Assembly (NCBI RefSeq): GCF_944327235.1
Contig: NZ_CALVHE010000011.1
Location: 1-44,838 of the forward strand
Source: an uncultured Desulfovibrio sp.
Lineage (GTDB): Bacteria; Desulfobacterota; Desulfovibrionia; Desulfovibrionales; Desulfovibrionaceae
Length of the DNA: 44,838 nt
Direction of reading: 5' to 3'
Position 1 is the first letter of the stretch; each line of letters opens with the position of its first letter. This document shows positions 8,862 to 41,400 of the stretch, in pieces. The position numbers and the translations under genes were made by a program. The notes below the pieces were generated by a model. It saw nothing but the letters and a program-made list of their open reading frames with translations. It was not told the DNA's origin and did no database searches.

Positions 8862-9863
8862 ATGGCCGTCAAACTTGGTGTCAATGGTTTTGGTCGCATC
8901 GGTCGTTACCTGCTGCGTCTCATGGCGGACTCGCAGGACGTGGTCATCACCGCCATCAATGCCCGCGCGGACAATGCCGCTCTGGCCCATCTGTTCAAGT
9001 ATGACTCCGTCTACGGCACGTTTGCCGGTACCGTCGGGCATGACGAGAACGGCATCATCGTCAACGGGCGTCACATCACCGTGACCCGTTGCAAGACCGG
9101 CGAATGGCCGTGGAAGGAACTCGGGGTCGATTTCGTGGTGGAAACCACCGGCACCGCCAAGAAACGCGACGACGCCGCCCTGCATCTGGCCTGCGGAGCC
9201 AAGAAGGTCGTGGTCTCCGCTCCCTGCAAGGAAGCCGACGCCACCATCGTCATGGGCGTCAACGACGCCGTCTATGACGCCGCGGCCCACAGCGTCATCT
9301 CCGCCGCTTCCTGCACCACCAACTGTCTGGCTCCCGCGGCCAAGGTCATCAACGACGTGTTCGGCATCAAGCACGGCCTCATGACCACCATCCATTCCTA
9401 TACCATGAGCCAGCGCATCCTTGACGGATCGCACAAGGACCTGCGCCGGGCCCGTGCGGCCGCCGTGTCCATGATCCCCACCTCCACCGGTGCGGCCAAG
9501 GCCACCGCGCTCGTGATCCCCGCCCTCAAGGGCAAACTGGACGGCATGGCCGTGCGCGTGCCCACCCCCGACATCTCGCTGGTGGACCTCACCTGCGAGC
9601 TGGAAAAGAGCACCACGGCCGAAGAAGTGAATGCCGCCCTCAAGGCCGCCTGCGAAGGCCCGCTCAAGGACAACCTCGGCTACTGCGAAGAACCGCTGGT
9701 CTCCATCGACTTCAAGGCCGATACGCACGGCGGCGTGGTGGACTCCCTGACCACCCAGGTCATGGACGGCACCCTGCTCAAGCTGATCGTCTGGTATGAC
9801 AACGAAGCCGGCTTCACCAACCAGCTGGTGCGCCTGCTGCGTCTGGTCGGGGCTTCCTGCTAG
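8862..9863 (+). CDS. gap: Glyceraldehyde-3-phosphate dehydrogenase, type I
   Basis: NAD(P)-dependent oxidation and phosphorylation of glyceraldehyde-3-phosphate. The 333-residue length is standard. The Rossmann motif GVNGFGRIGRYLLR is at the N-terminus, the catalytic cysteine is Cys151 in SAASCTTNCLAP, and the later signatures STGAAKAT, MAVRVPTPDISLVDL and WYDNEAGFTNQ are intact. The RBS AAGAGGAG precedes the start. It is second in the fba-gap operon. The stop codon TAG (9861-9863) is shared with a family B repeat: TA is the likely target dinucleotide and G is the first base of the element. Confidence 0.97.
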   Translation: MAVKLGVNGFGRIGRYLLRLMADSQDVVITAINARADNAALAHLFKYDSVYGTFAGTVGHDENGIIVNGRHITVTRCKTGEWPWKELGVDFVVETTGTAKKRDDAALHLACGAKKVVVSAPCKEADATIVMGVNDAVYDAAAHSVISAASCTTNCLAPAAKVINDVFGIKHGLMTTIHSYTMSQRILDGSHKDLRRARAAAVSMIPTSTGAAKATALVIPALKGKLDGMAVRVPTPDISLVDLTCELEKSTTAEEVNAALKAACEGPLKDNLGYCEEPLVSIDFKADTHGGVVDSLTTQVMDGTLLKLIVWYDNEAGFTNQLVRLLRLVGASC

Positions 9864-10004
9864 AGCGTTTTGCCTTTGAAAGAGGCATGATGGGAGGCGG
9901 CAGCACAGTGCCGTCCGGCCCAACGTGAGGGGAAAAACCGCGTTTTTTCCGCGAAACGACAGGCCGTATGGTTTGAGACGCAAAGCGTTCCAAACTGAGG
10001 AGGC
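9863..10004 (+). repeat. Family B MITE-like repeat, copy 2
   Basis: The left end GAGCGTTTTGCC is preceded by TA. The core CGCGTTTTTTCCGCGAAACG is present, as is the right-hand hairpin region GTTTGAGACGCAAAGCGTTCC. The right terminus is degenerate (GAGGAGGCCCC instead of GAAAATGCTC), so the end is approximate. Confidence 0.8.
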
Positions 10005-10150: not shown

Positions 10151-10205
10151 CCCGCAAGGATGCGGGATGCGAATTAACTCCCATACAGACATTCATGGAG
10201 GAATG
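10151..10205 (+). promoter_or_regulatory. Flagellin leader with two GGA-loop hairpins (probable CsrA sites)
   Basis: Hairpin 1 is CCCGCA-AGGA-TGCGGG (10151-10166). Hairpin 2 is CATTC-ATGGAG-GAATG (10190-10205) and encloses the Shine-Dalgarno GGAGG. Both expose GGA in the loop, as CsrA sites do. The pairing of a distal and an SD-overlapping site resembles the hag leader of Bacillus subtilis. Confidence 0.6.
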
Positions 10206-10207
10206 TT

Positions 10208-11110
10208 ATGTATATCAATCACAACTCGATGGCCACCAATGTTGCCAACACTCTGACCGGTCACTATGGCAACCTGCAGACCTCTACCCAGCGCCTGTCT
10301 TCCGGTATGCGCATCAACAGCGCCGCTGACGACGCCGCCGGTCTGGCCATCAGCGAACTCATGCGCGCCGACGTTGCCGCCCTCAATCAGGGCGTCCGCA
10401 ACGCCAACGACGGTATTTCCCTTATCCAGACCGCTGACGGCGCCCTTGGCGTTATCGACGAAAAGCTGATCCGCATGAAGGAACTTGCGGAACAGGCCGC
10501 CACCGGTACCTACGACTCCACGCAGCGTCTGATGATCGAATCCGAATACCAGCAGATGGCTTCGGAAATCACCCGTATCGCCAACGCCACCGACTTCAAC
10601 GGCATCAAACTGCTCGACGGCACGCTGTCCGCCATGAACAATGCCGACGGCAAGATCCACGACGGTTCTCAGCTGACCGCTCAGGGCGCCTTGAAGGTGC
10701 ACTTCGGTACGGCCAACGACTCCGCTGAAGACTACTACTACATCGAGATCGGTGACTGCACCGCCTCCGCTCTGGGCGTGGGTATCTCCGCTCGCGCCGG
10801 CGCCGCCGGTAGCACCATCTCCACGCAGCAGGCCGCTCAGGAAGCTCTGGTGGCCATCAACAACGCCATCGTGTCCAAGGACAAGATCCGTGCTCACCTC
10901 GGCGCCATGCAGAACCGTCTGGAAAACACCGTGACCAACCTCACCGTGCAGTCCGAAAACCTGCAGGCCGCCGAATCCCGCATCCGCGACGTGGACGTGG
11001 CCACCGAAATGACCAACTTCGTCCGCAATCAGGTTCTTACGCAGTCTGCCGTGGCCATGCTCTCGCAGGCCAACAGCATGCCGCAGATGGCTCTGCAGCT
11101 TATCGGCTAA
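10208..11110 (+). CDS. fliC: Flagellin, copy 1
   Basis: Filament subunit exported by the flagellar type III system. The 300-residue protein has the conserved N-terminal D0/D1 (NHNSMATNVANTL, STQRLSSGMRINSAADDAAG, RNANDGISLIQTADGAL) and C-terminal D1/D0 (AIVSKDKIRAHLGAMQNRLE, AAESRIRDVDVATEM, NSMPQMALQLI) helices. Only a short central domain separates them, as is usual in Desulfovibrio. The protein is identical over all 300 residues to the copy at 38789-39691 on the other strand; I count eight base differences between the genes, all synonymous. Expression probably needs FliA, with translation governed by CsrA through the leader hairpins. A terminator follows 80 bp downstream. Confidence 0.96.
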   Translation: MYINHNSMATNVANTLTGHYGNLQTSTQRLSSGMRINSAADDAAGLAISELMRADVAALNQGVRNANDGISLIQTADGALGVIDEKLIRMKELAEQAATGTYDSTQRLMIESEYQQMASEITRIANATDFNGIKLLDGTLSAMNNADGKIHDGSQLTAQGALKVHFGTANDSAEDYYYIEIGDCTASALGVGISARAGAAGSTISTQQAAQEALVAINNAIVSKDKIRAHLGAMQNRLENTVTNLTVQSENLQAAESRIRDVDVATEMTNFVRNQVLTQSAVAMLSQANSMPQMALQLIG

Positions 11111-11359: not shown

Positions 11360-11500
11360 GAGCGCTTGCCGGTAAAAACGGCAAAACGCAAGGGGCGGCG
11401 CAGCGTCTTCCGGTCAAAGGTGAGCTGAAAGCCGCATTTTTCCCGCGAGACGACAGGCCGCAGGGTTTGAGCGCAATGCATTGCAAACGGAAAATGTGCT
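11360..11500 (+). repeat. Family B MITE-like repeat, copy 3 (diverged)
   Basis: GAGCGCTTGCC preceded by TA (11358-11359), core TTTTTCCCGCGAGACGACAGG, right end GGAAAATGTGCT. It is more diverged than the other copies, which suggests an older insertion. Confidence 0.75.
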
Positions 11501-11755: not shown

Positions 11756-11831
<76 letters not shown>

Positions 11832-12106: not shown

Positions 12107-12182
<76 letters not shown>

Positions 12183-14803: not shown

Positions 14804-15079
14804 CCAGGGCCTGTCAACACAGATTTTACAAATAATTTTACTAAATAAGGGGGCGATCCGTTCACGCTCCATATGTTTTTGGGGCGGGGGCGACTCGCGT
14901 CCCTGACTCTTCTCCCGGTAAAAGCGCGCTGGGGAAGGGGTGGGGGGCTTGGGGGAAAGGGAGCGACCGAAAGGCGGCCATAGGCCGTGCCCGTTGCGAC
15001 GCAGGAAGCTACGGGCATCGACAGCAGAGCGAGGGGTTTCCCTTCTCCCCAAACGAACGGCAAATAGTGTTAACAGGCC
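14804..15079 (+). repeat. Family A intergenic repeat, copy 2 (most complete)
   Basis: 276 bp with terminal inverted repeats GGCCTGTCAACAC (left) and GTGTTAACAGGCC (right), one mismatch. It contains the AT tract TTTTACAAATAATTTT, the GGTAAAAGCGCGCTGGGGAA core, and the hairpin module GTGCCCGT/ACGGGCAT followed by CGACAGCAGAGCGAGG. Between it and the next repeat (15080-15192) there is one perfect hairpin, TGTGCGCG-GGAAA-CGCGCACA at 15125-15145, and no gene. Confidence 0.85.
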
Positions 15080-15192: not shown

Positions 15193-15330
15193 GAGCGTTT
15201 TGCCATGGAAAAGATATGACGCGGGGCGGCACAGCTCTCTCGGTCAAAACCAAGCGGAATAACAGCGATTTTCCGCGAAACGACAGGCCGTAAGGTTTGA
15301 AGCGCAATGCGTTCCAAACTGGAAATGCTC
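15193..15330 (+). repeat. Family B MITE-like repeat, copy 4, flanked by TA on both sides
   Basis: GAGCGTTTTGCC at the left and GGAAATGCTC at the right, with TA at 15191-15192 and 15331-15332. It ends 17 bp before the start of the CoA-ligase gene, so it forms most of that gene's upstream region. Confidence 0.88.
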
Positions 15331-17809: not shown

Positions 17810-17950
17810 GAGCGCTTCGCCCCAAAAAGGCAAAACGCGAGGCGGCAGCACAGCGTCGCCCGGCCCAGCGTGAGCGGAAAGACCGTGTTTTTCCGCGAAA
17901 CGACAGGCCGCATGGCTTGGAAAGCTTCGCGCCTCAAACGGAAAATGCTC
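17810..17950 (+). repeat. Family B MITE-like repeat, copy 5
   Basis: GAGCGCTTCGCC at the left, core GTTTTTCCGCGAAACGACAG, GGAAAATGCTC at the right. No TA is seen at the left border, so the flanks have changed. Confidence 0.82.
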
Positions 17951-24190: not shown

Positions 24191-24480
24191 CGCCTGTTAA
24201 CACTATTCGTTGCCTGTTTGAGGGGAAGGGGAATCCCTCGCTCTGCTGTCGATGCCTGTAAGGCTCCTTTGTCGCCTAACAGGCACGGCCCTGCGGGCCG
24301 CCTTTCGGTCGCGCTCTGCTGTCGATGCCCGTAGCTTCCTGCGTCGCAACGGGCACGGCCCTGCGGGCCGCCCGTTGGGGCGCTGCCAGCGCGGGAGCGG
24401 GTTTCCCATCCCCAGCGAGCTTTTACCGAGGGAAGAGCCGGAGACACGAGGCGCCCTCGCCCCCAAAGCAGACGGAGCGA
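24187..24480 (-). repeat. Family A intergenic repeat, copy 3, with internal tandem duplication
   Basis: Reverse orientation. It begins CTAGCGCCTGTTAACAC at 24187 and contains two tandem copies (period 73 bp, at 24241 and 24314) of the hairpin module TGCTGTCGATGCC...GGCACGGCCCTGCGGGCCGCC. The core AGCGAGCTTTTACCG is at about 24407-24421. The inner end is not clear. Confidence 0.8.
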
Positions 24481-38000: not shown

Positions 38001-38720
38001 TATGAAGAAAACCTCCCGCTAGGCGGGAGGTTCAAAAAAGCTTAAAGCTTTGCGTGTGTTATAAAAACTCCTTTTGATTTGCTAGTATCTCGTTGCGGTC
38101 TGGCAACTGCAACAATGAAGCAAATCAAAAGGAGGTCACAATGGGTGACAACAAAAGTCTAGCACATACCAAATGGAACTGCAAATATCATGTAGTCTTT
38201 GCTTCCAAATATCGTCGCCAAGTTTTCTATGGAGAGAAAAAGCGAGCAATCGGTGAAATTTTGCGTAAATTGTGCGAATGAAAAGGGTTAATATCATTGA
38301 GGCTGAATGTTATCCTGACCATATCCACTTGTTGCTTGAAATTCCGCCCAAAATGAGTGCCTCGGGGTTCATGGGATATTTGAAGGGGAAAAGTAGCCTG
38401 ATGATATATGAACAATTCGGAGATTTGAAGCTCAAGTATCGCAACCGTGAGTTTTGGTGCCGTGGGTATTATGTGGATACAGTAGGCAAAAATGCGACAA
38501 AAATCCGTGAATATATCCGCAAGCAATTAGAAGAAGACAAGCTGGGGGCACAGCTCAGTCTTCATGCAGGCAGCTCGTTTACGGGCCGCAAGTAACAAAT
38601 ATGCAGATGTCAGACCGCTATGTGCCTGTTAGGGCGCGGCTGGTAAAAAAGCCTTATAGGCGCATATGAAGAACCACCGGCTTTGCCGGTGGGTTCCTTT
38701 TCGCGCCTTGGGCGCTCAAC
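38001..38720 (+). mobile_element. IS200/IS605-family insertion sequence (tnpA only)
   Basis: No terminal inverted repeats; instead a subterminal hairpin lies at each side, as expected for HUH single-strand transposition. Left hairpin: CCTCCCGC-TAG-GCGGGAGG (38012-38030). Right hairpin: CCACCGGC-TTT-GCCGGTGG (38674-38692). Both are preceded by TATGAAGAA. The interior is visibly AT-rich compared with all surrounding genes, suggesting recent arrival from a lower-GC organism. It sits between the chemoreceptor terminator and the terminator of flagellin copy 2. There is no tnpB. Exact ends are approximate; the right cleavage site may be near TCAAC at about 38716-38720. Confidence 0.82.
38141..38595 (+). 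pseudogene. tnpA: IS200-type transposase TnpA, frameshifted
   Basis: HUH/Y1 transposase in two frames. The first part (38141-38281, from MGDNKSLAHTKWNCKYHVVF) stops at TGA 38279-38281 after LRKLCE. The second part (to 38595) continues in another frame as KRVNIIEAECYPDHIHLLLE, carrying the HxH metal motif. IREYIRKQ holds the nucleophilic Tyr. Relatives read LCEWK-VNIIEA without a break, so one G has probably been lost from the Trp codon. GGAGGT precedes the first ATG. Translational coupling through the ATGA overlap is possible, but a functional two-part TnpA is unlikely. Confidence 0.85.
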
Positions 38721-38788: not shown

Positions 38789-39691
38789 TTAGCCGATGAG
38801 CTGCAGAGCCATCTGCGGCATGCTGTTGGCCTGCGAGAGCATGGCCACGGCGGACTGCGTAAGCACCTGGTTGCGGACGAAGTTGGTCATTTCGGTGGCC
38901 ACGTCCACGTCACGGATACGGGATTCGGCGGCCTGCAGGTTTTCGGACTGCACGGTGAGGTTGGTCACGGTGTTTTCCAGACGGTTCTGCATGGCGCCGA
39001 GGTGAGCACGGATCTTGTCCTTGGACACGATGGCGTTGTTGATGGCCACCAGAGCTTCCTGAGCGGCCTGCTGCGTGGAGATGGTGCTACCGGCGGCGCC
39101 GGCGCGAGCGGAGATACCCACGCCCAGAGCGGAGGCGGTGCAGTCACCGATCTCGATGTAGTAGTAGTCTTCAGCGGAGTCGTTGGCCGTACCGAAGTGC
39201 ACCTTCAAGGCGCCCTGAGCGGTCAGCTGAGAACCGTCGTGGATCTTGCCGTCGGCATTGTTCATGGCGGACAGCGTGCCGTCGAGCAGTTTGATGCCGT
39301 TGAAGTCGGTGGCGTTGGCGATACGGGTGATTTCCGAAGCCATCTGCTGGTATTCGGATTCGATCATCAGACGCTGCGTGGAGTCGTAGGTACCGGTGGC
39401 GGCCTGTTCCGCAAGTTCCTTCATGCGGATCAGCTTTTCGTCGATAACGCCAAGGGCGCCGTCAGCGGTCTGGATAAGGGAAATACCGTCGTTGGCGTTG
39501 CGGACGCCCTGATTGAGGGCGGCAACGTCGGCGCGCATGAGTTCGCTGATGGCCAGACCGGCGGCGTCGTCAGCGGCGCTGTTGATGCGCATACCGGAGG
39601 ACAGGCGCTGGGTAGAGGTCTGCAGGTTGCCATAGTGACCGGTCAGAGTGTTGGCAACGTTGGTGGCCATCGAGTTGTGATTGATATACAT
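38789..39691 (-). CDS. fliC: Flagellin, copy 2 (protein identical to copy 1)
   Basis: A 300-residue flagellin with the same sequence as the product of 10208-11110. The genes differ at about eight synonymous positions: six clustered in the last 150 bases and two near the 5' end. The central 650 bases or so are identical, a pattern of gene conversion. ATG at 39691 is set by homology and by GGAGG; an in-frame extension to 39952 would translate the leader and is wrong. Promoter, upper leader and terminator are different from copy 1, so the two are separate expression units of one protein. It is inverted relative to copy 1, 28 kb away, with an IS element just downstream. Confidence 0.96.
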   Translation of the reverse strand: MYINHNSMATNVANTLTGHYGNLQTSTQRLSSGMRINSAADDAAGLAISELMRADVAALNQGVRNANDGISLIQTADGALGVIDEKLIRMKELAEQAATGTYDSTQRLMIESEYQQMASEITRIANATDFNGIKLLDGTLSAMNNADGKIHDGSQLTAQGALKVHFGTANDSAEDYYYIEIGDCTASALGVGISARAGAAGSTISTQQAAQEALVAINNAIVSKDKIRAHLGAMQNRLENTVTNLTVQSENLQAAESRIRDVDVATEMTNFVRNQVLTQSAVAMLSQANSMPQMALQLIG

Positions 39692-39693
39692 AA

Positions 39694-39746
39694 CATTCCT
39701 CCCTGAATGTCTGTACGGAGTGGATGATAACCTGCTTCCCTGCAGG
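39694..39746 (-). promoter_or_regulatory. Flagellin copy 2 leader with two GGA-loop hairpins (probable CsrA sites)
   Basis: On the minus strand, hairpin 1 is CCTGC-AGGGAA-GCAGG (39746-39731) and hairpin 2 is CATTC-AGGGAG-GAATG (39709-39694) over the Shine-Dalgarno. Hairpin 1 has a different stem sequence from that in copy 1, but the same GGA loop and a similar place in the leader. Confidence 0.6.
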
Positions 39747-40989: not shown

Positions 40990-41039
40990 ACGGGCAGCGT
41001 CAAGCCAGCGCATCCCGCGACGGACCGGTCCTGCCGTCC

Positions 41040-41400
41040 ACTTGCCTTTGGAGCAGGGTTGCCTCGTGTCCTCGGCTCTTCCCCCGGTAAAAGCGCGCTG
41101 GGGAAGGAATGGAGGGCTTGGGGGAAGGGAGCGACCGAAAGGCGGCCGTAGGCCGTGCCCGTTAGGCGACAAAGGAGCCTTACGGGCATCGACAGCAGAG
41201 CGGGGGCCTTCCCCTCAACAGGCAGCGAATAGTGTTAGAGCATTTTGCCTTTGAAAAAGGCAAAATGCGAGGCCCGGCACAGCGCCGCCCGGCCCAAAGT
41301 GAGCAGGAAAACCGCGTTTTTCCGCGAAACGACAGGCCGTATGGTTTGAAACGCAAAGCGTTTCAAACTGAAAATGCTCTAACAGGTCCTAACAGGCCCT
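41040..41400 (+). repeat. Family A intergenic repeat, copy 4, interrupted by a family B repeat
   Basis: The core GGTAAAAGCGCGCTGGGGAA starts near 41087, then comes the hairpin module GTGCCCGT/ACGGGCAT and CGACAGCAGAGCGGGG. The right terminal sequence GTGTTAACAGG is split at TA: GTGTTA lies at 41232-41237 and TAACAGG resumes at 41380. The left end is not recognisable. Confidence 0.82.
41238..41379 (+). repeat. Family B MITE-like repeat, copy 6, inserted in family A copy 4
   Basis: 142 bp, GAGCATTTT...AAAATGCTC, flanked by TA on each side (41236-41237 and 41380-41381). Two perfect hairpins are visible: GCATTTTGCCTTT with AAAGGCAAAATGC at the left, and GTTTGAAACGC-AAA-GCGTTTCAAAC at the right. 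It is the best preserved copy in the window. Confidence 0.9.

Follow-up and report, generated by a model that had tools for sequence, protein, structure and literature searches.

A probable IS630-type miniature element nested in an older repeat of a gut Desulfovibrio genome

The window analysed here, the whole 44,838-nt stretch of DNA, corresponds to contig C11 of an uncultured Desulfovibrio genome (G000; 2.74 Mb, 155 contigs, 98.95% complete). In it one interspersed repeat (family B) sits within the end of another (family A). What is B, and how did it come to lie there? The initial annotation took the nesting as evidence that B is a mobile element which uses TA as its target, in the manner of IS630/Tc1-mariner transposons, and which moved after A was in place. 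From sequence comparison we conclude that B is very probably a non-autonomous MITE of the IS630/Tc1-mariner kind, moved in trans by an IS630-family transposase. The type of element is known; new in detail is a well-populated MITE in gut Desulfovibrionaceae.

A repeat inserted into a repeat

Read directly from the window, B is exactly 142 bp long (GAGCATTTT...AAAATGCTC) and lies between the flanks ...AATAGTGTTA (left) and TAACAGGTCCTAACAGGCCC (right). The junctions run from ...CAGCGAATAGTGTTA into GAGCATTTTGCC and from ...CTGAAAATGCTC into TAACAGGTCCTAACAGGCCCTGGG, so that the end of family A is split into GTGTTA and TAACAGG with a TA at either side of B (Table 1), as had been described. Joined with one TA, the flanks give GTGTTAACAGG, which is identical at 15067-15077 and 24193-24203 (minus strand). 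The claim that removing B and one TA restores A is exact for this 11-mer only. The interrupted A copy lacks the left end (CCTGTYAACAC...) that is present in the 14810-15077 copy, and an imperfect 10-bp duplication, TAACAGGTCC then TAACAGGCCC, is found to the right of B only. Since both 10-bp copies lie on that side, they do not belong to the target duplication. From the nesting we infer that A is the older of the two repeats and that B inserted at a TA in its right end.

Table 1. Family A and family B features in the window
Feature	Position	Strand	Basis
B element, probable 142-bp IS630-type MITE, copy under study	41238..41379	+	read from sequence
Left TA of target duplication	41236..41237	.	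single TA in A copies 15067-15077, 24193-24203
Right TA of target duplication	41380..41381	.	read from sequence
Family A remnant without left end, interrupted by B	41037..41237	+	81-89% repeat matches to 14868-15070
Remaining A right end and imperfect 10-bp duplicate (TAACAGGTCC/TAACAGGCCC)	41380..41399	+	read from sequence
Uninterrupted family A copy that has its two ends (CCTGTCAACAC ... GTGTTAACAGG)	14810..15077	+	
B copy whose end is the TAG stop of an ORF; G066 relative has TAA at that codon	2028..2171	-	orthologue comparison
B copy in TA of GAPDH stop codon; right end decayed	9863..10003	+	orthologue comparison
Degenerate B copy	11361..11499	+	
B copy common to G096 (L260), absent at orthologous G066 site (L315)	15193..15330	+	
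Degenerate B copy	17810..17950	+	

The locus lies between an EamA-type gene and an S49 peptidase gene. In G066, G095 and G068 it contains neither A nor B; in G093 a complete, CTAG-flanked A extends from the EamA stop codon and has a B copy at its edge; in G096 B occupies a third position. As the positions of B differ among G093, G096 and G000, the comparison across relatives rules out B as an integral component of A. Family A itself has the appearance of a mobile repeat, and B moved independently of it. The inverted ends of A read GGCCTGTTAACAC (window 14810-15077; L289 in G093); together with the CTAG flanks in G093 they suggest that A may itself transpose with a 4-bp CTAG duplication, in G093 within a stop codon.

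The B family and its TA target

Copies of B make up a large family of interspersed repeats. With up to two mismatches its core, TTTCCGCGAAACGACAGGCCG, matches 210 times in the 2.74-Mb genome and the reversed control not at all; a B profile matches 141 times in 1.065 Mb of the same genome (132/Mb, which extrapolates to about 360 copies per genome). A repeat by chance is ruled out by these counts. In the sister G093 the profile matches 95 times within 0.83 Mb. In a core scan of species genomes, from which G000 itself may be left out, all the matches listed are in Desulfovibrio or related Desulfovibrionaceae (one of them a Mailhella). Copies are usually 142-144 bp long, contain no transposase gene and occur in both orientations, some of them head to tail with a common TA. 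Identity to the nearest neighbour has a median of 86% and reaches 98.6% in the closest pair, so there is no sign of present transposition; judged from these sequences, the amplification of B in G000 looks to lie in the past. Comparison with plasmids and phages gave no match, which leaves spread by these without support. The B copies in the window match no known RNA in Rfam, and the literature searched contained no relevant paper describing B in Desulfovibrio. In G017, 37-38 bp palindromes (TAGAGCATTTT...AAAATGCTCTA; L180:1497-1533 and L191:1497-1534) resemble the left hairpin of B alone, and are possibly a minimal element or a terminator.

The target was examined at empty sites, uninterrupted loci of related genomes to which the joined flanks of a B copy, with one TA, align across the junction. 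Those with one TA comprise (i) CCGTTCTAATG, L079 compared with L114 (93% over 300 bp); (ii) CCCTTTAACGAAAAGG, L377 of G093 compared with L342 of G000; (iii) TGTTTTATAAGGC, L096 of G093 compared with L367 of G000; and (iv) CCCTCCCGGTAGGGACAGG, L337 of G000 compared with L395 of G093. At L021 and L024, B lies within copies of family A, and the relatives of these copies are uninterrupted. Because the empty sites keep exactly one TA, the TA belongs to the target and was duplicated on insertion. A target duplication longer than TA is ruled out, as none was seen at any empty site examined. Among 73 full copies with both flanks, a TA is present on the left in 49, on the right in 42 and on both sides in 36. 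Many full copies thus lack one TA; these may be old copies or have imprecisely placed ends. The genome-wide search and the search for empty sites in relatives, with many copies and single-TA sites, bear out both mobility and TA targeting: insertion sites differ between related genomes, and single-TA sites occur both in related genomes and among paralogous repeats.

An alternative is that B is a REP/BIME-like or terminator-like structural repeat, retained because of its hairpins and multiplied by recombination or slippage, the TA being part of its palindromic ends and not a duplicated target. Consistent with this, B folds almost wholly into hairpins (-72.8 kcal/mol as RNA), some changes are paired (for example GC 37 and AT 24 at one stem pair) and tandem copies exist. 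The single TA of the empty sites, the differing insertion sites between species and the match of B ends to those of IS630 elements make this origin extremely improbable. It may still apply to secondary functions of B.

IS630 elements and the putative helper

Neither Pfam DDE_3 nor a protein search revealed an IS630 transposase in G000, and the 1.06 Mb of that genome sampled contained no IS630 DNA. The protein search likewise gave no match in the five closest relatives, G093, G066, G095, G096 and G068. IS630 elements with TA/GAGC ends are present in other genomes of the genus (G098, G022, G094 and others). An IS630 element with B-like ends, which the initial annotation had proposed to look for in the same genome, was thus not found there but is present in genus relatives, and the assignment of B to the IS630 type gains from their carrying its ends. 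The helper of B in G000 may have been lost, may be unassembled or may be foreign.

The full-length IS630 elements of the genus are 989-991 bp long, end in TA followed by GAGCRTTTCAMCTTTGAAATG and use TA as B does. The element of 989 bp at L204 (G098) has an intact transposase of 322 aa, which scores 193 bits against the NCBIfam IS630 model (cut-off 100) and 116 bits against Pfam DDE_3. At L203 (G022) the element is 991 bp long and its reading frame is broken in two. The L204 ends, TAGAGCGTTTCACCTTTGAAATG and TAGAGCAATTCAACTTTGAGATG, and the similar ends of L203 align with those of B. Over 21 bases (TAGAGCATTTCAACTTTGAAA) there is no difference between an IS630 end in G094 (L242) and a B end in G098 (L204). 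These elements resemble B in their ends and TA use and adjoin B copies, but they carry a DDE transposase gene, whereas B has none. Only some 19-21 terminal bases are common to both, and the interior of B is unlike IS630, which gives no support to direct descent through an internal deletion.

A second miniature family, of about 134 bp, derives from IS630 by internal deletion (L171:1648-1782, L147:3182-3320, L255:1479-1614). At L204 the IS630 element and the adjoining B copy have a TA in common, as do the deletion derivative and a B copy at L171 and L147; at L255 the third derivative adjoins B with CA. Matching ends and junction TAs are the pattern expected if one transposase handles B, IS630 and the derivatives. 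The genomes richest in B candidates in one scan, G020 and G022, carry IS630 or its fragments.

Another TA-duplicating transposase, such as an IS5/IS427-type or undescribed enzyme, might have moved B, its IS630-like ends being convergence on GAGC...TTTGAAA. This would fit the failure to detect an IS630 transposase in G000 or its nearest relatives, although B is present in hundreds of copies. It is nevertheless very unlikely, given ends that match over about 19-21 bp, up to identity, the junction TAs common to B, IS630 and its deletion derivatives, and the presence of IS630 or fragments in the B-richest genomes.

DDE transposases of the IS630/Tc1-mariner kind bind the element ends, excise the element and join it to TA with a two-base stagger, and repair duplicates the TA. 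We infer that an IS630 transposase moved B by such cut-and-paste chemistry. Acting in trans, it would recognise the B ends of about 19 bp (GAGCRTTTYNNYTTTGAAA), excise B and join it to TA with the two-base stagger; repair of the staggered cut would then duplicate the TA. On this proposal the sulfate-reducing Desulfovibrionaceae of the gut have, in B, a clear and abundant IS630-type MITE whose probable helper lies in sister species.

A direct precedent for movement in trans by an IS630 transposase is RUP with IS630-Spn1. RUP is a 107-bp non-coding element of about 108 copies that targets TA, and its inverted ends are similar to those of IS630-Spn1, its proposed trans mover (PMC2229807, PMC3049150); it also nests in other repeats (PMC10969869). 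B and RUP, likened by description and not by sequence, are both short, non-coding and nested, with TA targets and IS630-like ends. B is longer and denser (about 132/Mb) and belongs to Desulfovibrionaceae, and whereas RUP and its proposed helper share a species, the putative helper of B was seen in other species of the genus and not in its own. Correia/NEMIS and ERIC/IRU are also short interspersed repeats; they have inverted repeats at their ends, duplicate their target and carry TA at the termini (PMC2229807, table). They are set apart, by description, by their other hosts and by the match of B ends to IS630 of its own genus.

Stop codons as insertion sites

The GAPDH gene of the window ends in a TAG (9861-9863) made by the left junction of B, TA from the target and G from the element. 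In the sisters G093 and G066 the stop is TAA at the codon where B enters, and at other B insertions, too, there are orthologues that end in TAA or TAG where B lies. Because B ends begin with G, insertion in the TA of TAA or TAG recreates TAG and leaves the protein intact. An element that inserts at TA and starts with G can in this way settle in stop codons with the genes unharmed.

Enrichment at stop codons was assessed in two ways. By the frame test, 97 B ends in G000 form a TAG; 31 of them, about a third, terminate a frame that is open for 150 codons or more, and the other two frames give 12 and 6. In G093 the counts are 15 of 60 for this frame and 7 and 1 for the others. Elsewhere, TAG sites close long frames in 9-10% of cases. 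With genes called by ORF proxy, the odds ratio is 4.2 and significant in G000, and the enrichment is absent in G093 (0.86). The enrichment, seen by frame test in both genomes and by ORF proxy in G000 only, is suggestive. We tentatively entertain, a little short of favouring it, the idea that gene ends are safe harbours, with stop codons the favoured home of B and a sizeable number of genes terminated by it. To explain the placement, it is enough that harmful insertions are selected against in a compact, GC-rich genome. Repeats that supply stop codons have a precedent in the BOX repeats of S. pneumoniae, which are short and give a stop codon to upstream genes in 36 coding sequences (PMC3049150). 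BOX differs in being modular, with ends compared to ISSpn2, whereas the TAG of B is composed of the target TA and the element's leading G.

Other features of the window were noticed. A flagellin gene is present twice, inverted and 99% identical over 930 nt (10181-11110 and 38789-39718). Two equal-scoring tRNA genes (11759-11831 and 12110-12182, minus strand) lie in a 98% identical direct repeat of 112 nt. Rfam STnc490 has a full-length match at 38010-38131 on the plus strand (113.9 bits; gathering 56); this family is described as an Hfq-binding RNA and is unexpected in a Desulfovibrio-type genome.
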